Positions 2,117-39,293 of a stretch of DNA of 39,293 bases are shown piece after piece. Location of the stretch: contig WHTA01000055.1 in NCBI GenBank assembly GCA_009379825.1, positions 1-39,293 on the forward strand, in the 5' to 3' direction. The stretch's first letter is position 1; the number at the start of each line of letters is the position of its first letter. The DNA comes from Streptosporangiales bacterium (lineage in GTDB: Bacteria > Actinomycetota > Actinomycetes > Streptosporangiales > WHST01). The notes below the pieces were generated by a model. It was not told where the DNA came from. It ran no database searches and saw nothing but the letters and a program-made list of their open reading frames with translations. Made by a program: the position numbers and the translations under genes.

Positions 2117-4936
<2,820 letters not shown>

Positions 4937-29579: not shown

Positions 29580-29984
29580 ATGGACGCTGTCGCCGTGGTC
29601 GAGGGCGAGGTGCGCGAGCTGGTACGGCGGCGCGGCCTGGACCCGGTGGCCGAGCCCGCGGCGGTACGCCTGCTGGTCGACGAGGTGGTGGCGCACTACG
29701 GCGAGCGCAGCCTCGCCGGCGGGCTGCCCCGGTTGGGCGACGCGGCCGGCGTGTCGCGCAGCGTCTTCGACGCGGTCGCCGGCTTCGGCCCGCTGCAGCG
29801 GTTCTTGGACGACCCGGCGGTGGAAGAGGTCTGGATCAACGAGCCCGGCCGGGTGTTCGTCGCGCGGCACGGGCGCAGCGAGCTCACCACCACCGTGCTC
29901 ACCGAGGTGCAGGTGCGCGACCTGGTCGAGCGGATGCTGAAGAACTCCGGCCGCCGGCTCGACCTGTCAAAACCTAGCATTTGA
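29580..29984 (+). pseudogene. cpaF: cpaF/tadA (Flp pilus secretion ATPase), N-terminal fragment cut by the element
   Basis: ATG 29580 follows GGGAGGGGC and starts MDAVAVVEGEVRELVRRRGL. The frame then shows the CpaF N-terminal domain: VDEVVAHYGERSLAGGLPRL, FGPLQRFLDDPAVEEVWINE-PGRVFVARHGRSELTTT, and VRDLVERMLKNSGRRLDLS. After Asp128 (bases 29961-29963) the sequence belongs to the integrated element, and translation ends six residues later (LSKPSI, TGA 29982-29984). The remaining ATPase is at 37293-38147. Joining the two at the shared GACCT gives an uninterrupted frame reading GRRLDLSAPFVDAMLPDGSR, exactly the conserved CpaF segment. CpaF powers pilin polymerisation in Tad pili, and the fragment lacks both Walker motifs. 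Confidence 0.93.
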
Positions 29985-29988
29985 CATA
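29939..29988 (+). repeat. attL of the integrative element
   Basis: The chromosomal arm (29939-29960, cpaF codons) meets the element arm (from 29966) at GACCT, 29961-29965. The element arm reads GTCAAAACCTAGCATTTGAC ATA and is the near inverted repeat of the element arm in attR. Combined with that arm it gives a 48-bp attP whose centre is GTTTTGACCTGTCAAAAC, with central dinucleotide CT at 29964-29965. This is the form expected for large serine integrases: dyad arms with a non-palindromic 2-base core. Confidence 0.85.
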
Positions 29989-30047
29989 CGTGTGATTCTT
30001 CTCACATCAATTTGCCGTCTGACCTGCGGAAACTCTCGATTTTGGCA

Positions 30048-30070
30048 CCTCTGGAGGGGGCTCTCCGAGG
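30048..30070 (-). terminator. Possible terminator of the leftward element operon
   Basis: There is an imperfect stem of CCTC-T-GGAG and CTCC-GAGG (8 bp with one bulged T) around a GGGGCT loop, 3 bases beyond the stop of the leftmost element gene. It has no U-tract. Position supports the call; structure alone is modest. The 29985-30072 stretch is otherwise non-coding and AT-richer than the element average. Confidence 0.35.
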
Positions 30071-30072
30071 GG

Positions 30073-31014
30073 TCAGCGGCGGAGATGCGCCCAGGGCTCA
30101 CGCGAGGGCGCGGCGCCGCTCACGGCCCACGCGGGCAGCGCGCCCGGCGCGACGCTGGCGAGGCGGGCCTCGTCGTCCTGGCCGGTGCGGCGCAGGTGGC
30201 CGAGGTAGGCGCGCTCGCGCCAGCTGGGGCCGACCGAGCCCACCGACTCGCGGGCGTCCGCGCACTGCGGGCACAGGTGCCCGGTGAGCTTGGTGGGCGA
30301 GCGCCTGCCGCCGAGCGCATGGGTGGAGGCGGTCAGCGACTGCCAGGCGTCGGCGGCGGCGGCCTGGCGGCCACCCAGCCGGGCGACCGTGGCGGCGGGC
30401 ATCTGGACACTCTCGACCCCGCACAGCAGGCAGGCGCCGTCGGCCGGCTGGGCGTTGCGCTCGCTACGAGCGGCGGGAGGCGGCACCTCGACGGGTGGCT
30501 GGCCCGTCGCCATGCGTTCCTTGAGCGCGGCGGCGGCGGCCTCGCGCAGGGTGGCGCGGTCGGCGTCGAGGAGGTGGCCGAACGGGACGAGGCTGGCCAG
30601 GCCCCGGCGGCCGTGCGGCGCGGCAGCCCAGGCGGCGGCCAGCCCGGCGTTGGCGAGGTGGCGCACCAGGCAGCCCAGCTCGGCGTCGCTGATGTGCTCG
30701 CTCGGGGCGGGGCGGCTGGGCAGGGCCAGCGCCAACGCGGTCAGCACGCCCTCGCACGCCTGCCCGGCGCGGTCTGGGCCGAGCCTGCCGACCAGCGCGG
30801 GGTGGGCGGCGGCCAGCCGGAGCGCGGCCTGCTGGCGGTCCTCGCACGTCGGGCAGCGCGTCAGCGCGAGCACCTGGTCGCGCTGCGGCGCGGCGAGCGG
30901 GAAGCCGTCAGGCCGGGTCGCGGGGAGGTGGATCTGCTCGACCTCGCCCGGCCGGGCGGGCACGCCGCACACGCGGCAGGCCAGGTGACCATCCGGCAGG
31001 TCGACGGTGCTCAT
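30073..31014 (-). CDS. Element-encoded protein with paired zinc-binding CxxC motifs
   Basis: The product is 313 residues. It contains CRVCG and, about 40 residues later, CPTC near the N terminus (HLACRVCGVPARPGE, then LTRCPTCEDRQQAALRLAAA). A second pair in the C-terminal half is GACLLCGVES and GHLCPQCADAR. This suggests two zinc ribbons flanking a helical Ala-rich middle domain. No catalytic motif is recognised. The C terminus has SWRERAYLGHLRRTGQDDEA. ATG 31014 overlaps the stop of the upstream frame (ATGA); GTG 31020 is possible. The position is last in the leftward operon, next to attL. A nucleic-acid-binding role is inferred from the zinc ribbons only. Confidence 0.8.
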   Translation of the reverse strand: MSTVDLPDGHLACRVCGVPARPGEVEQIHLPATRPDGFPLAAPQRDQVLALTRCPTCEDRQQAALRLAAAHPALVGRLGPDRAGQACEGVLTALALALPSRPAPSEHISDAELGCLVRHLANAGLAAAWAAAPHGRRGLASLVPFGHLLDADRATLREAAAAALKERMATGQPPVEVPPPAARSERNAQPADGACLLCGVESVQMPAATVARLGGRQAAAADAWQSLTASTHALGGRRSPTKLTGHLCPQCADARESVGSVGPSWRERAYLGHLRRTGQDDEARLASVAPGALPAWAVSGAAPSREPWAHLRR

Positions 31015-31436
31015 CGCCACCGCCTGTTGTGCAGGGCGGCGGTCTGCTGCTCCACGACCCGCAGCTGCTCGGCGGAGAGCAGGGTGAAGGGCAGGGGCGG
31101 GGGCGGGGCCTGTCCGCTCAGAGAACCGGCCCCCTCTCGGCGCGCCGCCTCCGCCGCCGGTCGCGGTGCTCCTCCAGCGCCAGGTCGCCGAGGATGAGCG
31201 CCGCGGCGAGCAGGCCGCCGGACAGGATGAAGATCGGCGTCATGAGGCGTTCCTTTCGGTGAGCTGGCCGGGGCGGGCGTGGGCTCGGCGGGCTCGGCGG
31301 GCGTCCGAGCGCGCCGGGCAGCGGAGGCTGCGGCGAGCACCTGCGCCGCACGATCGCGGCGACGCTCGGCCTCCAGCTCGCTGGCGCTGACCAGGCGGCC
31401 CCAGCGGTAGACGCGCTGGTCGGCTGGGATGGTCAC
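31011..31436 (-). CDS. Element protein of 141 residues, unknown, possibly a fusion of two short genes
   Basis: GTG 31436 has GAGGAG five bases upstream and gives MTIPADQRVYRWGRLVSASE, then LEAERRRDRAAQVLAAASAARRA. This start looks like a genuine element protein. The same frame runs without a stop to TGA 31011-31013, which overlaps the next gene (ATGA), and its last part (PFTLLSAEQLRVVEQQTAAL) also looks coded. The middle (about residues 65-105) is Arg/Pro/Ala-rich and overlaps a better membrane-peptide frame, so the true arrangement may be two short genes whose frames happen to be joined. No known domain. Confidence 0.55.
   Translation of the reverse strand: MTIPADQRVYRWGRLVSASELEAERRRDRAAQVLAAASAARRARTPAEPAEPTPAPASSPKGTPHDADLHPVRRPARRGAHPRRPGAGGAPRPAAEAARREGAGSLSGQAPPPPLPFTLLSAEQLRVVEQQTAALHNRRWR
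31118..31243 (-). CDS. 41-residue single-helix membrane peptide
   Basis: ATG 31243 has AAAGGAACG seven bases upstream. The peptide starts MTPIFILSGGLLAAALILGD and continues LALEEHRDRRRRRRAERGPVL. It has one hydrophobic helix (residues 3-19) followed by an acidic turn and a strongly basic tail, i.e. an N-out/C-in single-pass protein. It lies inside the 141-residue frame in a different phase. Small membrane peptides in integrative elements may act in spread or regulation, but nothing here identifies a function. Confidence 0.55.
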   Translation of the reverse strand: MTPIFILSGGLLAAALILGDLALEEHRDRRRRRRAERGPVL

Positions 31437-31537
31437 GGCTCCTCCTCGGTGTGTCGGTGGATGTGGCGGGGACCGCCCCGACCGAGGTGCGGGCCACGCC
31501 GGGGGAGCCAGCCCGCAGACCCCGGCCGGGGCGGGGG

Positions 31538-31954
31538 CTAGGGGTAGCCAACAGCGCGCGGGTCGAACCAGGCGCGCTCGGCGTCGGTGAACAGGGCCGG
31601 GCACTCGTTCTGGTGCGTGATCCCCACCGATACCGGCGCGAGGCGGTACGCGGCCAGGCGGCCATGCTCTGGGTCGGGCGCGTCGATCCCGGCCGCCTCG
31701 CCGCACAGCGGGCACCGCCCGGTGCCGTTGGCCACGACGCGGGCGAGGTAGCGCTGGCGCACCCGCAGGGGGGCCGTGGGTCGCAGCGCGGGCAGTGCGG
31801 TGATCGGCCCGCCGCCGACGCGCCAGGCCGTGAAGCCCGGCGGGACGGGTGCCCCGTCGAGGCGCTCGACCAGGGGCCACCCGCCCGGTGGGGCGGCGCG
31901 CGCCGCGCGGTCGGCGGCGTCGGCCAGCTTGGCGCGGAGATCGGCTGCTGGCAT
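31538..31954 (-). CDS. 138-residue element protein with a C-terminal zinc site
   Basis: ATG 31954 gives MPAADLRAKLADAADRAARA, a helical start, then a segment rich in Pro, Trp and Gly (PGGWPLVERLDGAPVPPGFT-AWRVGGGPI). The C-terminal half has NGTGRCPLCGEAAGIDAPDPEHG and later SVGITHQNECPALFTDAERAWF. CPLCG together with His-x(3)-Cys forms a probable zinc ribbon. The frame extends to 32275, but the upstream part crosses the promoter-like dyad and is noise. It is probably the first gene of the leftward operon, with 101 bp to the next start. Unknown function. Confidence 0.7.
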   Translation of the reverse strand: MPAADLRAKLADAADRAARAAPPGGWPLVERLDGAPVPPGFTAWRVGGGPITALPALRPTAPLRVRQRYLARVVANGTGRCPLCGEAAGIDAPDPEHGRLAAYRLAPVSVGITHQNECPALFTDAERAWFDPRAVGYP

Positions 31955-32065
31955 GGGCACTCCCGGCGTGGTGCGGCGGCGGTGGCCCGGCCCTGCTGCC
32001 AGCGGCTGGGGCCAGCGTAGCGAGTGGGCGGAGCGGGGCGGGCGGCTCACGCCCTGGAGGGCGGA

Positions 32066-32076
32066 CTGTACTACAG
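32066..32076. promoter_or_regulatory. 11-bp dyad CTGTACTACAG
   Basis: CTGTA-C-TACAG is a perfect 5-bp inverted repeat immediately left of the larger 20-bp dyad, in the gap between the divergent element genes. It contains TAGTAC on the minus strand (32073-32068), a possible -10 for leftward transcription. It may be a second operator or simply part of that promoter. Confidence 0.35.
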
Positions 32077-32096
32077 ACCTCAACCGTGGTTGAGGT
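32077..32096. promoter_or_regulatory. 20-bp operator-like dyad resembling a SoxR/MerR box
   Basis: ACCTCAACCGTGGTTGAGGT is a perfect palindrome with 9-bp arms and a GT centre. Its core, CCTCAA-N6-TTGAGG, is the pattern of SoxR boxes and of several other MerR-family operators. It lies between the divergent starts of the 138-residue gene (minus, 31954) and the 58-residue frame (plus, 32132). For leftward transcription the dyad would lie between CAAACC (-35-like) and TAGTAC (-10-like) with a long spacer, as in MerR-type promoters. The regulator is unknown; the element's own excisionase-like HTH is one candidate. Confidence 0.6.
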
Positions 32097-32131
32097 TTGT
32101 GCCACACTGGCGGGAGGAGAAGGGAGACGAC

Positions 32132-32308
32132 ATGCGTACACGACCGAGCGTGAGCCCGAGGGCGGTAGCCACCCGCTCGCTGACCCGAGTGATGCGGCTC
32201 ACCGGAGACGCCCGCCGTGAGGCGCTGCGTGAGCACGCCGCCCTCGTCTGGCCTTCGGTCTGCTCCTTCAGTCATCAGTCGGCGCCTTCGGTCAGACCGA
32301 AGAACTGA
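32132..32308 (+). CDS. 58-residue basic protein, the only rightward gene of the element
   Basis: ATG 32132 has an excellent ribosome-binding region (GGGAGGAGAAGGGAG, ending 6 bases upstream). The product begins MRTRPSVSPRAVATRSLTRV, then MRLTGDARREALREHAALVWPSV. It is basic and helical, with no recognised domain. It sits right of the 20-bp dyad and its 3' end enters the CTTC(A/G)GT repeat cluster, so the last 18 residues are repeat-derived. It could be a small autoregulator controlling the divergent operon; that is inference from position. Confidence 0.6.
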   Translation: MRTRPSVSPRAVATRSLTRVMRLTGDARREALREHAALVWPSVCSFSHQSAPSVRPKN

Positions 32309-32411
32309 AGGCGGCGGGTCTTCAGTCTTCAGTCTTCAGTCCCCAGACAGAGTCTGGGGATGACTGAAGACTGAAGGACTGAGAGAGACCGCCGATTCAG
32401 TCGGCTTCGGT
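32253..32411. repeat. Cluster of CTTC(A/G)GT repeats in both orientations with a long hairpin
   Basis: CTTCGGT occurs at 32253-32259, 32286-32292 and 32405-32411. CTTCAGT occurs at 32266-32272 and as three tandem copies at 32320-32340. The inverse ACTGAAG occurs at 32304-32310, 32363-32369 and 32370-32376. Two inverted repeats are built from them. One is CTTCGGTC-A-GACCGAAG (32286-32302). The other is a long hairpin with two CTTCAGT units plus CCCCAGAC (32327-32348), loop AGA, and GTCTGGGG, ATG bulge, two ACTGAAG units (32352-32376). The cluster lies at the 3' end of the AAA ATPase gene, between convergent genes. It could be an iteron-type origin, a regulator-binding array or a bidirectional terminator. 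Confidence 0.85.
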
Positions 32412-33686
32412 CGGGGACTGAACGGGCCAGTAGTGGGTGCGGCGGTGGTGTGGACGCGAACAGCGCGTGCAGGCGCTGGTGCACTTCTCCTCACGGACCC
32501 AGCCGTTCTCCAAGGCCTTCGTCCTGCCTTGGAGGTTGAGGGGCTTGAGCCCGCCGGAGTCCACGTTGTCGGTCAGCTCCTGCCCGTCCGCGCCGGGGTG
32601 CTCGCGGACGTAGGCGGCGGTCAGTGCGGCCACGCCCGCGACCCCATCGAGGTCAACGCTCGGCTTCGCCTCACCGGTCGCCTTCCCGTCCACCACCGGC
32701 CGCCCCTCGGGGTTGAGGACCACCCGCATGGGCGGCACCGCCACTCCGCCCGTCCTCGGCCGGACACTGAACCGGCGGGTAGAGGCCGGGTCGTCGGCGT
32801 TGTCGGAGGAGTAGGTCCACAGCGCGTCGGGTCCCGCCTGGGCCTCGACGCCGCCCATCAGGTGGCTGCCTGCCATCGTGTTGTGCGCGATCGCCAGCGC
32901 GTTCGGCACGTCGATCTCACGCATGAGCCGCCGGAACGCGGCGTACCACTCGCCGTACGCCTCGACTCCCTTCCCGGCGGCGTGCAGAATCGCCGTCACG
33001 CCGTCCACGATCACGGCGAACGGCGTCCAGTCGTCCATGCCGTCGCAGTCATGGCACTCGGTGAGGCGGTTGGCCCACAGGTCGTAGAGCGCCGGGTCGG
33101 TCACGTCGAACATGTGCGCGCCGCCGAGGTCTTCGAGGTGCTCGATTCCCAGCAGGTCACTGACCGGGAGGTGGTGGTCGAGGATGGCCACCTTCTGCTC
33201 CGTGAGCCAGTCCAGCGGCGCCTCCAAGTCCTCCGGCGGCGTCTCGGCGTTGATGAGCAAGAGACCCCGACCCAGCTCCTCCTCGGTCAGCTCGGCGGGC
33301 TCGAAGTGGCCGAGGAACCTGTAGCCGGGCATCACGAGGGCCGTCGCGAAGTCGACCGCGATCGTGGTCTTGCCCGCCTTCGGGTTACCGCCGAGCATCG
33401 GGATCGTCCCCCACGGCATGAAACCGGGGATCAGCATCCGGCGCTGAGCGGAGGAGCGACGCCCCAAGTAGGACTTGTCCGGCAGATTGGCATACGTGCC
33501 GAGCACGCGCTCACGGAGCCTCTGCAAGGGCCTGCCGGTGATCGGGGTCCCGTCGTCGTAGGTGAACTCGCCCTCGCGGATCATCGCCTCGTAGCGCTCG
33601 GGGGATGTCACTTCCGACAGAGCGGGCAGCTCGAACGACCCTCGATAGGTTCTAGTCTGGCCCTGGTAGGTGATCTTGATCTTCAC
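32397..33686 (-). CDS. AAA ATPase, RepA/DnaB-like (AAA_25 type)
   Basis: The product is 429 residues starting at GTG 33686 behind GGAGGTGACC. Walker A is GGNPKAGKTT (about 99-108), preceded by the usual IPGFMPWGTIPML. Walker B is FAVIVDGVT (about 206-214), and AIAHNTMAGSHLMGGVEAQA is a sensor-like segment. This is the RecA-like fold of plasmid RepA helicases and of AAA_25 ATPases in actinobacterial elements. The C terminus has a winged-helix-like part (VREHPGADGQELTDNVDSGG) and a possible zinc site CTSACTRCSRPH. It may be the element's replication or maintenance protein. The repeat cluster directly beyond its 3' end would suit an origin, but this is not proven. Confidence 0.82.
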   Translation of the reverse strand: MKIKITYQGQTRTYRGSFELPALSEVTSPERYEAMIREGEFTYDDGTPITGRPLQRLRERVLGTYANLPDKSYLGRRSSAQRRMLIPGFMPWGTIPMLGGNPKAGKTTIAVDFATALVMPGYRFLGHFEPAELTEEELGRGLLLINAETPPEDLEAPLDWLTEQKVAILDHHLPVSDLLGIEHLEDLGGAHMFDVTDPALYDLWANRLTECHDCDGMDDWTPFAVIVDGVTAILHAAGKGVEAYGEWYAAFRRLMREIDVPNALAIAHNTMAGSHLMGGVEAQAGPDALWTYSSDNADDPASTRRFSVRPRTGGVAVPPMRVVLNPEGRPVVDGKATGEAKPSVDLDGVAGVAALTAAYVREHPGADGQELTDNVDSGGLKPLNLQGRTKALENGWVREEKCTSACTRCSRPHHRRTHYWPVQSPTEAD

Positions 33687-33779
33687 CGGTCACCTCCGGG
33701 CCACTCGTCATCGTGCATGATGGAAGTCCCTTCGTAGTTGGTCGAGAGCCCCGGTCCCCCGCCGGGGCTCTCGTGCGGT

Positions 33780-34070
33780 CTAGGCGCCCAGTGCCTCGGC
33801 CAGTCGGCGGTACGCGGCCCAGCACTCAGCGGCGATCTGCGAGGGCGTCAGCGGTGGCAGCAGGGACGGGGAGCCCAACGGGTCGCCGTAGAGCCGCCAG
33901 CGCCGGTAGTGCTTGGCGCACCAGCCGCGACGGATCGGCCCGGTGGCGTCGCAGCCGGGCGCGTCGCAGCCGCGCAGGTAGGTGACGTGCCGGGTCGCCC
34001 AGCGGTGCCGGTGGTACGGGTCGTCGGGAGGACATCCGCGCTCGATCCGCGCAGGCGGGGTGACGCTCAC
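33780..34070 (-). CDS. 96-residue zinc-motif protein, HNH/phage-type N-terminal zinc finger
   Basis: GTG 34070 overlaps the stop of the preceding 34-residue frame (GTGA). The product has a basic N terminus rich in His, Arg and Pro, then RGCDAPGCDATGPIRRGWCA-KHYRRWRLYGDP. The Cys-x4-Cys-x(9-10)-Cys-x2-His-Y-x-RW-x-x-x-GDP pattern is the zinc-binding module found at the front of many phage HNH-type and recombination-directing proteins. No His-Asn-His nuclease core follows, so a nuclease call is not justified. The C-terminal 30 residues are helical (TPSQIAAECWAAYRRLAEAL). Confidence 0.75.
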   Translation of the reverse strand: MSVTPPARIERGCPPDDPYHRHRWATRHVTYLRGCDAPGCDATGPIRRGWCAKHYRRWRLYGDPLGSPSLLPPLTPSQIAAECWAAYRRLAEALGA

Positions 34071-34171
34071 TCGGCCGCCTCCTCGTCCACTCCGGTCAGC
34101 AGCCAGGCGACCTGCTGCACCTGCTCCTCGGTCAGCGGCGGGAGCGCGGCGGCGGCCTCGGCCGGGGTCAC
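34067..34171 (-). CDS. 34-residue coupled peptide
   Basis: GTG 34171 overlaps the excisionase-like stop (GTGA), and its own TGA (34067-34069) overlaps the start of the zinc-motif gene. The peptide is MTPAEAAAALPPLTEEQVQQ, then VAWLLTGVDEEAAE. It is an acidic, amphipathic helical peptide with the LPPLTEEQxxxVAxLL pattern often seen at the ends of small element proteins. The 4-bp overlaps on both sides make translation likely. No function is known. Confidence 0.6.
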   Translation of the reverse strand: MTPAEAAAALPPLTEEQVQQVAWLLTGVDEEAAE

Positions 34172-34416
34172 CGCAGCACCTCCGCGTCGTCCACGACGAC
34201 GCGGCTCAGGTCGATGACCTCGGCTCCGTCGAACACGCCGTAGCTGCGGGTCTTGGCGAGCACCCGCTTGGCCTCGTCGAGGTCGACGACGTGCTCGTTC
34301 CTGTTTCCGAGCCGGAAGACCTTCAACTGCTTGTTCTTGATGCGGGCGCGGACGGTGTTGTACGTGACGCCGCACTCGGCGGCGGCTCGGGGGATAGTCG
34401 CGAAGCGACGGGACAT
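34168..34416 (-). CDS. Excisionase-like winged-helix DNA-binding protein
   Basis: The product is 82 residues from ATG 34416, with AGGGAG about 9 bases upstream. It begins MSRRFATIPRAAAECGVTYN, then TVRARIKNKQLKVFRLGNRNEHVVDLDEAKRVL. This helix-turn-helix-wing-helix layout is that of HTH_17/Xis-type proteins. In an integrative element the likely role is a recombination directionality factor or a repressor/activator. The region upstream (34417-34852) probably carries its promoter. It heads a tightly coupled three-gene set (HTH, 34-residue peptide, zinc protein). Confidence 0.75.
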   Translation of the reverse strand: MSRRFATIPRAAAECGVTYNTVRARIKNKQLKVFRLGNRNEHVVDLDEAKRVLAKTRSYGVFDGAEVIDLSRVVVDDAEVLR

Positions 34417-34852
34417 GATGGTGCTCCCTTGCGGGATGCACAGCCGAGGGGCAGTGTGCCCTGACACCGGGGCTGCTGGAGTCACACCATCGCGGCCCTC
34501 ATCAGAGGGAACCGCTTCTCGTCCGTCGCGCTCGCTGGATCGGCTGGGTGTCTCAGTGCCAGCGAGGAACCGTGGCTCCCGAGCGGTCTGACGGCCAACC
34601 CTCGGGCGGTGGCTTCTGCGAAGTCCATTCTAGCGCCTTGTGCGCGGCTCTCTGCGCCATTCTGCGGCTCTCACCGGGTGCGTTTGACCTTGCGGCACAG
34701 GGGCGATTTTCGCGGGCCTTAGAAAACGATTTCTCAAATCCGGCCGCTGGGCAGAGACACGACAACGGCCCGCCACCACCGAGGATGACGGGCCGCTGCG
34801 CCGTGCCGGGCCGTGCCCGTGCCGTGCTGCCCGCCGGCCGTGCTGCGGCCGT
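34417..34852. other. 436-bp non-coding region, probable control region of the element
   Basis: No gene is supported here. The part 34680-34745 is the most AT-rich stretch of the element interior. It contains two small dyads: GCGA-TTT-TCGC (34713-34723 region) and AGAAA-ACGA-TTTCT (34721-34734). TAGAAT at 34632-34627 (minus) could be a -10 for leftward transcription, but no good -35 is at 16-18 bases. An origin or promoter with operators is the most reasonable reading. Confidence 0.45.
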
Positions 34853-35038
34853 TCAGCGGCGTTCCACGCGCCCCGCTGCCGGCGTTCCACCGTCGCGCGC
34901 CTGGCGGTACCGGTCGAGCGCCGCGCGGATGCGGTCGAGCTTCCCCGTCGGGCTGTCGTACTCGCTGGCGACGATCGCCTCGACGCGGCCGACCAGGTCG
35001 TGCGGGCTGTCGCGGTAGGCGTCGGGGTCGGCGGTCAC
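34853..35038 (-). CDS. 61-residue element protein, unknown
   Basis: GTG 35038 overlaps the stop of the upstream gene (GTGA). The product begins MTADPDAYRDSPHDLVGRVE, then AIVASEYDSPTGKLDRIRAALDRYRQARDG. It is charged and mostly helical with no recognised domain. Strict coupling to its neighbour suggests the two act together. Base composition and codon use are the same as in the rest of the element. Confidence 0.65.
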   Translation of the reverse strand: MTADPDAYRDSPHDLVGRVEAIVASEYDSPTGKLDRIRAALDRYRQARDGGTPAAGRVERR

Positions 35039-35259
35039 TGGTCACCTCCGTCTTGGTCGTTCATCGGGTGGAGGAGCTGTTCGAGCCGGAACGCCAGGTA
35101 CTCGGCGTCGTCGGCGCGCTGCCGGTAGAGGCGGCGCATGTCCTCGCTCGTGGTCTGGGCGTAGCTCTTGATGGCGTCGCGCTTCATGCGGCGCAGCACG
35201 TCGAGCGCGGCCTGGAGCCGTCGCTCGTCGCGGGGGTCGTTCGGTACGTTGGTGGCCAC
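35035..35259 (-). CDS. 74-residue helical element protein, unknown
   Basis: GTG 35259 is preferred over the GTGs at 35265 and 35268 because it lies 8 bases after AGGAGG. The product begins MATNVPNDPRDERRLQAALD, then VLRRMKRDAIKSYAQTTSEDMRRLYRQRADDAEYLAFRLEQLLHP, two long charged helices that could form a helical hairpin or coiled coil. No family is recognised. It is coupled to the 61-residue gene by a 4-bp overlap. A stem-like CCTAGCTAGG lies just upstream (35271-35280). Confidence 0.65.
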   Translation of the reverse strand: MATNVPNDPRDERRLQAALDVLRRMKRDAIKSYAQTTSEDMRRLYRQRADDAEYLAFRLEQLLHPMNDQDGGDQ

Positions 35260-35359
35260 GGCCACCACCTCCTAGCTAGGTGGTTGGTCTAGGCCCCGGC
35301 TCGGTGCTGACACACCGGTCGGGGCCGCTTCCTACTCGCCAGCAGGTGCGGGCGAGGGC

Positions 35360-35743
35360 TCAGCACAGGCGGGACTCGTCGTCCCACCCGGCGGCGTCGG
35401 CGGGCTTGCGGTTGATCACGGTGCCGTCCTCCATGATCCAGTAGGAGAACTCGTCCAGGTCGATCGAGCGGAACCCGCGCCCGCGCCACCAGCGCAGGTA
35501 GTAGAACCAGCGGATCAGCTCGAACAGGGCCTCATGCCCCTCGCCCAGCTCCCTGCTGGTCCCCCACGCCCGCTGCCGCACCACGTACCAGTGCGGGTTG
35601 TCCGGCATCGTCTTGGCGAAGGTCCACTCGCTGGCGGCGATGTAGTCGCGGGCACGGTGGACCAGCGCGGGCGGCGGGTGCCCCTCGCGCTGGCCGTGCG
35701 CGAGCCCGCAGTCCGGGCAGGGCGTTACAGTGTCGCTTGTCAT
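35360..35743 (-). CDS. 127-residue element protein with N-terminal CxxC and Trp/Tyr-rich core
   Basis: ATG 35743 follows GAGAGGA. The product starts MTSDTVTPCPDCGLAHGQRE. Its core, ARDYIAASEWTFAKTMPDNP then HWYVVRQRAWGTSRELGEGHEALFELIRWFYYLRWWRGR, ends in FRSIDLDEFSYWIMEDGTVINRK. The ASEWxFAKTMPxxPHxYxVR and YYxRWW-x-G patterns recur in an uncharacterised protein family of actinobacterial phages and genomic islands, as I recall it. The function is unknown. The N-terminal CPDCG could hold zinc or be an addition. It lies between the integrase and the small coupled genes. Confidence 0.75.
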   Translation of the reverse strand: MTSDTVTPCPDCGLAHGQREGHPPPALVHRARDYIAASEWTFAKTMPDNPHWYVVRQRAWGTSRELGEGHEALFELIRWFYYLRWWRGRGFRSIDLDEFSYWIMEDGTVINRKPADAAGWDDESRLC

Positions 35744-35809
35744 CGAGGGTTCCTCTCGGTGTCCGGACCCCCGGAGGTTGTCGCCTCGCGGGGGTCGCCT
35801 TCTGTCGGG

Positions 35810-37273
35810 CTACGCCTCGCCCGCTGCCACGACCGGGCTCAGCACGAGCCGGTCGCTGGACCACTTGTCGCCGCGCTTGGCGACCGGCTGCACCTGCACC
35901 CGCAGTACCGCGCGCAGCACCGCCCGCTGCACGTCCACCGGGGCGGCCAGGAACGCCGCGCCGGGGTCCGGTGCGCGCATCACCTTGGAGGTGAGCGACC
36001 GTTGCAGCCCGGTCGCCAGCTGGGCGTCGATCTCGGTGATCTCCGCGGTGAGCCGGTCGGTCTTGGCCTTGTAGCGGCGGGCGTCGATCAGGTCGTGGTC
36101 GTAGTCGATCTCGGTCTGTTCCAGCGAGGTGGTCAGCGTCGCCCGCCGCGCGCGGTCGGCCTGCATGGCGTCACCGTCGCCGACGCTCATCGCGGCCACC
36201 ACCCGAGGGTCACGGACCAGCTCCGCGACGACCTCCCTGACGTACTCGTCGGTCTTCGGCGCCGCCACGCTCAGGTGGTTCTGCTCCGCGCAGCGGTAGT
36301 GGTAGCGGCGTCCCTGTGACCCGCCCGAGGAGGTGGTCCGCATGAGGGCGTGGCACCCCGGCCGACCGCACTCGTAGGTGTTCGAGCCCAGCCACCGGGG
36401 CTCGGTCGAGGTGTGCACGCGGCGGGAGGGGTCCAGCAGCAGCGCGTGGACGGCACGCCAGGTGTCCTCGTCCACGATCGGCTGCCACGACGCCTTGCCG
36501 ACGATCTCGAACCCGGCGAAGTAGCCGGGCCGGTAGTCGGGCCGGTCGGGACGCCCGTGGTTGATCAGCCCGGCGTTGCGCGGCCTGATGAGCACGTCCC
36601 GGAGCCGCTGGTAGGTCCACGGCTTGCCCACCGAGGTCTTGACGCCCCGGTCGCCGAGGTCGCGGGCGACGGCCGCCAGCGACCGCCCGGCGAGCACCGC
36701 TGTGGTGGCCTCGCGGATCACCTGGGCCTCGTCCTCGCGGATCGTCACCCCGTCGGCGTCGAAGCCGAACGGGCGGGGGCCACCTCGGTACCTGCCGTCG
36801 GCGGCGGCCTGTGACTTGGCCCGGCGCATCCGCTCGCGGGCGTGGTCCACCTCGTGCTGGGCCGCCGCGCCGAGCATCCGCGCCACCATCCGCCCCGAGG
36901 CGGTGGACAGGTCCACGGTGCCCGCCGAGACAGTCTGCACCTGGGTGCCGTGCGTCTCGGCCACGGTGACGAACTCCTCCAGCTCCAGCGCCCGGCGGTG
37001 CAGCCGGTCGGGGTGCCAGGCGAGGATCGCGGCGATCTCGCCGTCGCGGACGGCGCGCAGCATCAGCTCGTACTGCGGGCGGCGCTGGCCGGAGTAGGCG
37101 CTGATGTCGTTGTCCACGAACACCGCCACCACGTCCCAGCCGAGCCGGGCGGCGAGGTCTCGGCAGTCGGCCTCCTGGCGCTCCACGCCGAGCCCGGCAC
37201 CGGCGCGGTCCTTGGAGATGCGGCAGTAGATCGTGGCGGGCAGGCGGGGCGTCTGGTCGGGTGTCGGGCTCAT
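35810..37273 (-). CDS. int: Large serine recombinase (integrase)
   Basis: The product is 487 residues. The N-terminal resolvase domain has IYCRISKDRAGAGLGVERQE with catalytic Ser20 in YCRIS, then FVDNDISAYSGQRRPQYELM, and WHPDRLHRRALELEEFV with the conserved Arg pair. The recombinase domain includes RARGGPRPFGFD-like YRGGPRPFGFDADGVT and LRDVLIRPRNAGL. The zinc-ribbon part shows YECGRPGCHALMRT and YHYRC, and a coiled-coil segment follows (ATLTTSLEQTEIDYDHDLID). It integrates the element at attB in cpaF by 2-base-core strand exchange. The start is only one base from the 23-bp attR arm, with no ribosome-binding site but a -10-like TAGAAT six bases upstream, suggesting a leaderless mRNA. Confidence 0.95.
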   Translation of the reverse strand: MSPTPDQTPRLPATIYCRISKDRAGAGLGVERQEADCRDLAARLGWDVVAVFVDNDISAYSGQRRPQYELMLRAVRDGEIAAILAWHPDRLHRRALELEEFVTVAETHGTQVQTVSAGTVDLSTASGRMVARMLGAAAQHEVDHARERMRRAKSQAAADGRYRGGPRPFGFDADGVTIREDEAQVIREATTAVLAGRSLAAVARDLGDRGVKTSVGKPWTYQRLRDVLIRPRNAGLINHGRPDRPDYRPGYFAGFEIVGKASWQPIVDEDTWRAVHALLLDPSRRVHTSTEPRWLGSNTYECGRPGCHALMRTTSSGGSQGRRYHYRCAEQNHLSVAAPKTDEYVREVVAELVRDPRVVAAMSVGDGDAMQADRARRATLTTSLEQTEIDYDHDLIDARRYKAKTDRLTAEITEIDAQLATGLQRSLTSKVMRAPDPGAAFLAAPVDVQRAVLRAVLRVQVQPVAKRGDKWSSDRLVLSPVVAAGEA

Positions 37274-37285
37274 ATGTCAATTCTA
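37274..37285 (-). promoter_or_regulatory. int: Candidate leaderless promoter of int inside the att arm
   Basis: On the minus strand TAGAAT (37285-37280) is followed by TGACAT and then the int ATG (37273-37271). The transcript would then start at or next to the A of ATG. Actinobacterial leaderless genes usually have TANNNT 6-7 bases before the start codon, and no Shine-Dalgarno sequence is present here. No convincing -35 lies 17 bases upstream in the integrated state. The sequence upstream differs between attR and attP. Confidence 0.5.
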
Positions 37286-37319
37286 GGGTTTTGACCTCAG
37301 CGCGCCGTTCGTCGACGCG
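37274..37319 (+). repeat. attR of the integrative element
   Basis: The element arm (TATGTCAATTCTAGGGTTTT GAC, ending 37295) meets CT (37296-37297) and then cpaF sequence (CAGCGCGCCGTTCGTCGACG). The arm matches the inverted attL arm at 18 of 23 positions, including the outer eight and inner nine bases. An in-frame TAG at 37284-37286 closes the cpaF frame just inside the element. Confidence 0.85.
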
Positions 37320-38147
37320 ATGCTGCCAGACGGCAGTCGACTCCATGTGGTGATCCCGGACGTCACCAGGGACGCCTGGGCGGTGAACATCCGCAAGTTC
37401 GTGGTCGCGGCGTCGTCGCTGGACGAGCTGATCAGGTTCGGCACACTCACCAGGCACTGCGCGGACTTCCTCGAGGCCGCGGTGGCGTCCGGGCTGAACG
37501 TGATCGTGTCCGGCGGTACGCAGGCGGGCAAGACGACCTTGCTGAACTGTCTGGCGGCCGCCATCCCCGCGGCCGAGCGCGTGATCAGCTGTGAGGAGGT
37601 CTTCGAGCTGAAGCTGCACCACCTGCCGGACTGGGTGGCGATGCAGACCAGGCAGGCGAACCTCGACGGGCGCGGCGAGATCCGGCTGCGCCGGCTGGTC
37701 AAGGAGTCGCTGCGGATGCGGCCGTCCCGGCTGATCGTCGGCGAGGTGCGCCAGGAGGAGTGCCTCGACCTGTTGATCGCGTTGAACAGCGGCATCCCCG
37801 GGATGTGCAGTGTGCACGCGAACAGCGCCAGGGAGGCGATCACCAAGCTGTGCACGTTGCCGCTCCTGGCCGGCGAGAACGTCACGCACGGCTTCGTGAC
37901 ACCGACCGTCGCGGGGTGCGTCGACCTGGTCGTGCAGCTCGACCTCGGCGGCGGTGGGCAGCGGCACGTGCGTGAGGTCGTCGCCGTGACCGGCAGGGTC
38001 GAAGGCGACGTGGTCGAGACCGCCGACGTGTTCGTGAGCAGCGACGGCCGGCTGGTGCGCGCGGACGGGTTCCCGCCGCACCCGCAGCGGTTCGCCCGTA
38101 TGGGGTACGACCTGCAGGCCCTGCTCGCGGGCGAGCGGGTGCCCTGA
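37293..38147 (+). pseudogene. cpaF: cpaF/tadA, C-terminal fragment with the ATPase core
   Basis: The frame resumes at GAC 37293-37295 as DLSAPFVDAMLPDGSRLHVV. It contains the NTPase core: GLNVIVSGGTQAGKTTLLNC (Walker A), VISCEEVFELKLHHLPDWVA (Asp box region; Cys-Glu-Glu where Glu-Asp is usual), RMRPSRLIVGEVRQEECLDL (Walker B) and GMCSVHANSAREAITKL (His box). An in-frame TAG lies at 37284-37286. ATG 37320 could start a 275-residue N-terminally truncated product if transcribed. With the left fragment it makes a 411-residue CpaF, the normal length. The stop overlaps the tadB-like start by one base (TGATG). Confidence 0.93.
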
Positions 38148-38416
38148 TGGGGGCGTTGCTCGGGCTGACCTTCGGCCTCGGCGTGCTGCTGGTCTGGCTG
38201 GGCTGGACGGCGCCGCCGGTGGTACGCAGGACCGGTCGGCGCTCGCGCACCGGCGACCTGCTTGCCGAGGCGGGCATCGAGGGCGTCACGGCCGGCCAGT
38301 TCTTCGTCATCTCCGGCGTACTCGGTCTGGTCGGCGGGTTGGCGATGCTCGCCGCGTCCCGCGTGTGGCTGGTCGCGTTGTCGTTCGCCGTCATCACCGC
38401 ACTCGCGCCGCGGATG
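38147..38416 (+). pseudogene. tadB-like inner-membrane pilus protein, N-terminal fragment
   Basis: ATG 38147 follows cpaF directly. The start MGALLGLTFGLGVLLVWLGW is one transmembrane helix. The sequence then has RRTGRRSRTGDLLAEAGIEG (the basic segment with DLLAxAGxxGVTxxQF typical of actinobacterial TadB), and two more helices ending VWLVALSFAVITALAPRM. At about 38411-38416 the sequence becomes the antisense of an IS1182-like transposase 3' end, and the frame continues only to TAG at 38528-38530 with foreign residues. The type II secretion F domain is missing. TadB and TadC form the membrane platform for the CpaF motor. Confidence 0.8.
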
Positions 38417-39293
38417 AGCTTCCATTCGCTGTCCGCCGCTGCGAGCCCTCGACGGAAGAGACTTCGGATCCTGCGGTTGTGCTTGATCTGGGCGAATACG
38501 GGCTCGATGCTGGCGGCTCTCTTCTTGTAGGTCTTGCGACCTCTGGGGGTGTCGAGCTTGGCCATCATTGTGGTGGTCAGTGGATCGGGATTGCCTGCTC
38601 TGCGGCGTCGTAGCAGCTGGTTCACTCGTGCCCTGGTCACGCCGAGTTGTTCGGACGCCTCGAGCGTGTCGATCTCGCCGGCCTCCACGCGGTCGAGGAG
38701 CTCGGCGCGTTGCTGGTCGTTGTCGGCAAGGCGTTTGAGTTCCCTGGCGCGTCCGGGAGCGATGAACGATTCCACGCCCTTCATGTTGACGTTCTCGGTG
38801 CTCCAGTAGCCGGCATCGGCGACGATCCTGCGGACCCGGCGCTTCTCCCCGGCGACGCGCAGGTTCTTCTTGGCCGCGGTCACCATGGGTGCGTAGGTCG
38901 GCGCGTCGTTGGCCTGGTTGGTGACCTCGGCCGCGACCACGAACTGGTCGGTGGTCGCCACCGCCTGGGCGTTGTAGCCCTGGAGGTAGCCGCCCCTTGG
39001 TCTTGAGCAACCTGCTGTCCGGGTCGGTGACGTTGGCCTGACTGCGGGCCTTGTGCGTCGAGGATGTCGGCGAGGGACGCCGGCCGCGGGTCGGCTTGCC
39101 CGTGGCTGCCTGTTTCTCCGCACGCCTGGCCATGTGCGCCTCGTACGACTTCTCCGCGGCCTCGGCTTCCAGCTCGTCGAGCAGGGCACGCAGCCGCGCG
39201 CGGCGACCAGTCCGCTCTTGCAGTTCACCCGCCGCATCGCCCTCGTCGGGCGGGGCAGCGTCTGCGTCCTCGGCCGCGTCTGTGGCGGCGGCC
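38411..39293 (-). pseudogene. IS1182-like transposase, frameshifted and 3'-truncated, continues past window end
   Basis: On the minus strand the DDE transposase is recognisable. An N-terminal stretch (RLRALLDELEAEAAEKSYEA, then HMARRAEKQAATGKPTRGRR) and NVTDPDSRLLKTKG are in one frame. GGYLQGYNAQAVATTDQFVV, AAEVTNQANDAPTYAPM, RIVADAGYWSTENV and EPVFAQIKHNRRIRSLFRRG, then LAAADSEWKLI, are in another. The switch is at a C-run (38993-38996) where one extra base breaks the frame. The C terminus ends abruptly at EWKLI (38413) against tadB sequence, so the last residues and the IS end are lost. The element is therefore a relic, unless the extra base is a sequencing error. Confidence 0.85.

Follow-up and report, generated by a model that had tools for sequence, protein, structure and literature searches.

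The 39,293-nucleotide stretch of a Streptosporangiales contig analyzed here (the window) carries, beside the gene of an AAA ATPase, a dense array of one 7-bp word in both orientations, which raised the question of the role of such an array at this position. The sequence-only reading of this DNA had suggested an iteron-type replication origin that might also work as a transcription terminator; it had not recognized the integrative element around the array. From the comparison of sequences described below, we consider it likely that replication of a 7.3 kb integrative element starts at this array, for which an AAA_25/winged-helix mechanism is proposed.

The integrative element and its word array

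The contig belongs to a 6.15 Mb actinobacterial genome, and the array sits in an integrative element of 7332 bp (29966-37297) that is inserted in a TadA/CpaF ATPase gene. When the flanks were joined at the core GACCT a single open TadA/CpaF frame of 411 aa was obtained, and joining the ends of the element produced a strongly palindromic attP. The sequence CTAG was also tried as a core for flank joining and was rejected, because it breaks the TadA frame whereas GACCT keeps it open. The features of the element and its flanks are as follows (strand and basis are given where assigned).

29580-29965, + strand: interrupted TadA/CpaF gene, 5' part (flank joining)
29961-29965: left core GACCT, attL (flank comparison)
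30073-31236, - strand: Cys-rich protein of ~390 aa, common to both close relatives
32132-32308, + strand: small convergent ORF of 58 aa, kept in the Nocardiopsis and Demequina elements, its end entering the array
32238-32317: hairpin 1, arms 32238-32262 and 32293-32317 (inverted repeat)
32250-32423: word array CTTC(A/G)GTC in both orientations, proposed replication origin with iterons (counts, shuffles, folding)
32320-32376: central hairpin, tandem-word arms 32320-32341 and 32359-32376, cap CCCCAGAC-AGA-GTCTGGGG at 32340-32360 (inverted repeat, folding)
32391-32427: hairpin 3, arms 32391-32402 and 32416-32427 (inverted repeat)
32397-33686, - strand: AAA_25 helicase, proposed initiator/helicase with a predicted C-terminal winged helix (domain match, model)
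34168-34416, - strand: HTH excisionase/MerR-like protein, candidate Xis/AlpA (ORF scan, relatives)
35810-37273, - strand: large serine integrase (ORF scan)
37293-37297: right core GACCT, attR (flank comparison)
37298-38147, + strand: interrupted TadA/CpaF gene, 3' part, T2SSE (flank joining)

No capsid, relaxase or Tra gene (including FtsK-like and FtsK/SpoIIIE-type) was recognized among the element ORFs scanned, which took in only some of the small ORFs, and none of its genes was identified as a primase. The Cys-rich protein, which is conserved in all three close elements, gave no Pfam or NCBIfam match above the cut-off; Rfam gave no believable match within the element, and no further element at the same site was found in 396 genomes with the integrase as probe. 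In size and gene order the element resembles a satellite or an AICE, with a serine integrase and no recognized transfer or capsid genes (cf. PICMI, PMC10803314). Some other sequences were observed around these genes. A stretch that covers the HTH gene start and the DNA before it (34349-34619, containing GAGGGGCAGTGTGCCCTGACACC) is 74% identical at the DNA level to positions 3792-4054 of the Nocardiopsis locus L014, while the proteins are only about 50% identical; this stretch may be leader or regulatory DNA. It had no Rfam match, and its fold was not significant in the window copy. An operator-like inverted repeat, ACCTCAACC-GT-GGTTGAGGT (32077-32098), precedes the small convergent ORF, and a region that reads as transposase-like (38400-39293) follows the TadA flank near the contig end.

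Exact counting gave 11 copies of CTTCRGT in 32253-32411 (7 on the + strand and 4 on the - strand), three of them in perfect tandem at 32320/32327/32334, which bears out the earlier claim of at least nine copies in both orientations. The word is also as rare elsewhere as had been stated, with 13 copies on both strands of the whole 39.3 kb contig, that is, only two outside the array. One-mismatch forms of the word (CATCAGTC at 32273, ATTCAGTC at 32395 and GTTCAGTC at 32416 on the - strand) extend the array to 32250-32423. Dinucleotide shuffles of the 175-bp array contained a mean of 0.11 and a maximum of 2 copies of CTTCRGT, and the best 6-mer per 170-bp stretch reached 10 copies in the array, compared with no more than 6 elsewhere in the contig and at most 5-7 in shuffles of the whole window. 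Moreover, the array DNA folds far better than its shuffles (z = -8.6) into three hairpins, the longest with ~24 pairs, in line with the predicted inverted repeats, one of which was to exceed 20 pairs. Many of the words are located outside the main hairpin. The GC content of the array is 59%, versus 72% for the element, and its center is formed by a hairpin with a GC-rich cap; sets of iterons separated by an AT-rich block were not seen. As in iteron origins, several copies of a short word accompany a replication gene, the 11 CTTCRGT occupying 160 bp where the AAA_25 gene has its 3' end.

The array had been placed between convergent gene ends. The two genes are indeed convergent, but the array does not lie strictly between them, since it contains the ends of both the AAA frame, whose stop is at 32397, and the small ORF (32132-32308). 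This arrangement, together with the long hairpin and its GC-rich cap, would fit a bidirectional transcription terminator whose words are a by-product of the long hairpins. However, the array lacks a T-tract, no terminator-like site was found in 31900-32700, many words fall outside the main hairpin, and termination has no need of a lineage-specific 7-bp word.

Arrays at other AAA_25 genes

The close family has three members. The element of Nocardiopsis quinghaiensis (L005/L014) has a tyrosine integrase and an AAA protein 51% identical to that of the window; the one of Demequina salsinemoris (L015) has a serine integrase 57% identical to the window enzyme and occupies the same insertion site in the same TadA/CpaF gene. 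The HTH gene, the AAA gene, the small convergent ORF (identified by eye in Demequina) and the Cys-rich protein are common to the three elements, and the order helicase, array, convergent small ORF is the same in all of them, but the words differ. The Nocardiopsis array is built on GTTCAGT, with a cap (CCCCAGACnGAGTCTGGGG) and layout as in the window and a DNA fold z of -10.4. In Demequina the word is AAGYGTG and the DNA forms a single long hairpin whose loop has 3 nt (z = -6.3); the word count, 4 versus up to 5 elsewhere, is not above its surroundings, and only the hairpin stands out. Both close relatives thus have nested hairpins built on a word different from that of the window: place and architecture are retained while the word changes.

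In two distant homologues (L006 and L007), about 30% identical to the window over the AAA part and with an N-terminal Prim-Pol, the word GCGCACT occurs 14 and 15 times, respectively, at the same relative place and within the open rep frame; the corresponding words are CTTCAGTC (window), GTTCAGT (Nocardiopsis) and GCGCACT (L006/L007). When 2.9 million viral contigs were scanned for GCGCACT arrays, with no use of the gene, 8 loci were returned. An AAA_25 gene adjoins the array in 4 of them, one being the L006 sequence and another, L022, having the word spacing of L007; the other 4 resemble plain 8-bp tandem repeats. The 71 matches to CTTCAGTCTTCAGTC in viral contigs were set aside as mostly due to chance, with no more than 6 words within 200 bp, those on one strand. 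Neither the phage and plasmid records searched with the window AAA gene (DNA and protein) nor the viral contigs scanned with AAA peptides gave a match.

A test set was chosen by the helicase alone, through a profile search with AAA plus winged helix in 346 genomes of the class, which yielded 9 loci, one of them cut by the contig end. When words were ranked without constraint, the one with the highest density anywhere in the locus was located immediately 3' of the AAA match in all 8 loci that could be tested; 7 of the 8 pass if the span is fixed at 300 bp, the array of L038 being 203-351 bp away. Ties at k = 7 in 2 of the 8 were clear at k = 6, and the hairpin z did not stand out for L033 or L038. 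The words were mostly different (CACCCCG, CAGTTCG, ACCTCCT, CGGGAC, ACCTCCC, CCTGCCA, CGAGGCG and GGGGTAC). The sequence-only reading had proposed a search for the same word at the equivalent place in related elements; an array was found there, but mostly with another word.

The host genome itself contains five other AAA_25 genes that, judging by resemblance, probably belong to mobile elements. Four of them (L114, L116, L117 and L118, on contigs C81, C122, C4 and C34) have arrays, with the words GGCCGAA, CTGCCAG, CCGAAG and CCGGCCA; no clear array was seen at the fifth, L115, and none at L119, a gene assigned as RadA-like by sequence reading. These AAA_25 modules with different words suggest several compatible elements in one cell. 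In five prophages of the Mycobacterium abscessus group, TGTTTC/GAAACA words come after the helicase gene, at the beginning of the following gene, which is read in the same direction. Most copies of these words are unchanged, though the region is only 68-77% identical between diverged members, and the capping hairpin covaries, both sides having changed in 5 of 9 pairs (four distinct sequences, a small sample).

These loci bear on the terminator as well. The array is wholly or mostly within the rep frame in seven loci (L006, L007, L034, L114, L116, L117 and L118), which makes termination an unlikely function, and in the mycobacterial prophages it sits at the start of a gene read in the same direction. 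The suggestion that the array doubles as a terminator was thus not sustained, and termination as its sole role appears highly improbable. An operator or a partition (centromere-like) site bound by the HTH or small protein of the element has also to be considered, since centromere and operator clusters, too, typically consist of words densely packed in either orientation, and the small ORF that adjoins the array is conserved alongside it. Nevertheless, the array tracks the AAA_25 plus winged-helix gene also where the small ORF is not recognized (the mycobacterial prophages and the Prim-Pol loci), no ParA/ParB-like gene was recognized among the scanned element ORFs, no promoter-like site was found near the array, and such a site would not explain the coupling of the array to the helicase gene, so that we regard this possibility as very improbable. 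The origin proposal, on the other hand, is strongly supported by the comparison of sequences, in which like arrays recur at the 3' end of AAA_25 plus winged-helix genes in phages and elements from many actinobacteria.

The helicase and the proposed mode of replication

The neighboring gene had been described as RepA/DnaB-like. Its product is an AAA_25 helicase, and an AlphaFold model built with six sequences (mean pLDDT 68, that is, moderate confidence) predicts a RecA-like helicase whose top Foldseek match is RSF1010 RepA (E 1.8e-8, Z 18.8, over 223 residues). At this level of confidence, the modeled window protein has the fold of the RepA hexameric helicase. In the same model a C-terminal helix-helix-helix-strand-strand (residues about 348-421) fits a winged helix. 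The window protein is devoid of Prim-Pol, which was found in L006, L007 and L035; between loci the primase part differs (Prim-Pol, Toprim or none), whereas AAA_25 and the array are constant. Across 14 loci, word similarity tracks winged-helix similarity (Spearman 0.43, 1 in 2000 permutations), a correlation that may arise from shared descent alone.

The basis for the origin is the array, its position and recurrence, the lineage-specific words, the hairpin covariation in one clade and the predicted helicase fold. From these we infer origin activity and a cycle in which the serine integrase would excise the element, the HTH protein being the likely Xis. The C-terminal winged helix of the AAA_25 protein would then bind the repeated words, in both orientations, on duplex DNA. 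Loading of a RepA-like hexamer would lead to DNA opening, and melting or extrusion of the capped hairpin would let the host or a helper prime. Each lineage's word would presumably be matched to its own winged helix, which might allow several such replicons to coexist in one cell.

A RepA-like helicase would also suit a single-strand initiation or nicking hairpin (RSF1010 ssi-like or a rolling-circle dso), in which the words are purely structural; covariation conserves the hairpin in one clade, and rolling-circle replication has been suggested for the stem-loop of pRN1 too. In the mycobacterial clade, however, the words are nearly unchanged while the letters of the hairpin tip change, no HUH nickase or RepB-like primase was recognized among the scanned ORFs of the element, and this reading would not explain the retention of words outside the hairpin. 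There is accordingly only a slim chance that the words are purely structural.

The iteron origin bound by a winged helix may extend beyond this element. It seems more likely than not that phages and AICE-like or satellite-like elements of actinobacteria make up a widespread class of replicons that start at capped-hairpin word arrays at the 3' end of their own AAA_25 plus winged-helix gene, the word changing with the winged helix to give mutually compatible replicons with origins readable from sequence. We found no description of the origins of actinobacterial AAA_25 replication modules in the open literature. If the proposal is true, the densest bidirectional word 3' of such a gene would predict origins, words and compatibility groups in phages and integrative elements, the system would be ready for studying the joint divergence of initiator and origin, and the small replicons could be used as actinobacterial vectors.

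Comparison with known replication systems

The present group shares with AICEs (SLP1 type, Prim-Pol/RepPP; PMC3218068) that they are actinobacterial integrative elements with Prim-Pol replication genes. No FtsK-like Tra was recognized among the element ORFs scanned, and the sections of that survey considered here describe no origin array. RSF1010 RepA has a helicase fold in common with the modeled window protein, but in RSF1010 the iterons are served by RepC, a separate protein, and the ssi hairpins by RepB' (reviewed in PMC4234260), whereas in the window the predicted winged helix is fused to the helicase.

The origins of PICIs lie immediately 3' of rep and contain iterons (PMC6092414). PICI/SaPI and P4 are like the window in having an origin, proposed in the window, 3' of rep, iterons and a small island with int and an AlpA/Xis-like gene (PMC6092414). 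They differ in that an AT-rich region lies between two sets of iterons in the origins of PICIs (PMC6092414). This arrangement is absent from the window array, which has a GC content of 59%, combines its words with a hairpin whose cap is GC-rich, and lies beside a different rep family.

The closest proven case is the Sulfolobus plasmid pRN1, whose replication depends on a stem-loop of ~100 bp located 3' of the rep gene and needs nothing beyond this stem-loop and the replication operon (PMC4234260); its mode of replication is a matter of disagreement between the authors and a second group (PMC4234260). The helicase of pRN1 is of the SF3 type with Prim-Pol, a combination lacking in the AAA_25/RepA-like protein of the window, and its origin was described without iterons, whereas the window has a RecA-like AAA_25 protein and stems made of repeated words. 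In both, nevertheless, a stem-loop origin, proposed in the window, adjoins the 3' side of the gene for a multi-domain helicase that ends in a winged helix, predicted in the window, and in both pRN1 and the array family (the window, Nocardiopsis, Demequina, most other loci and the covarying mycobacterial hairpin) the structure is kept while the sequence diverges.
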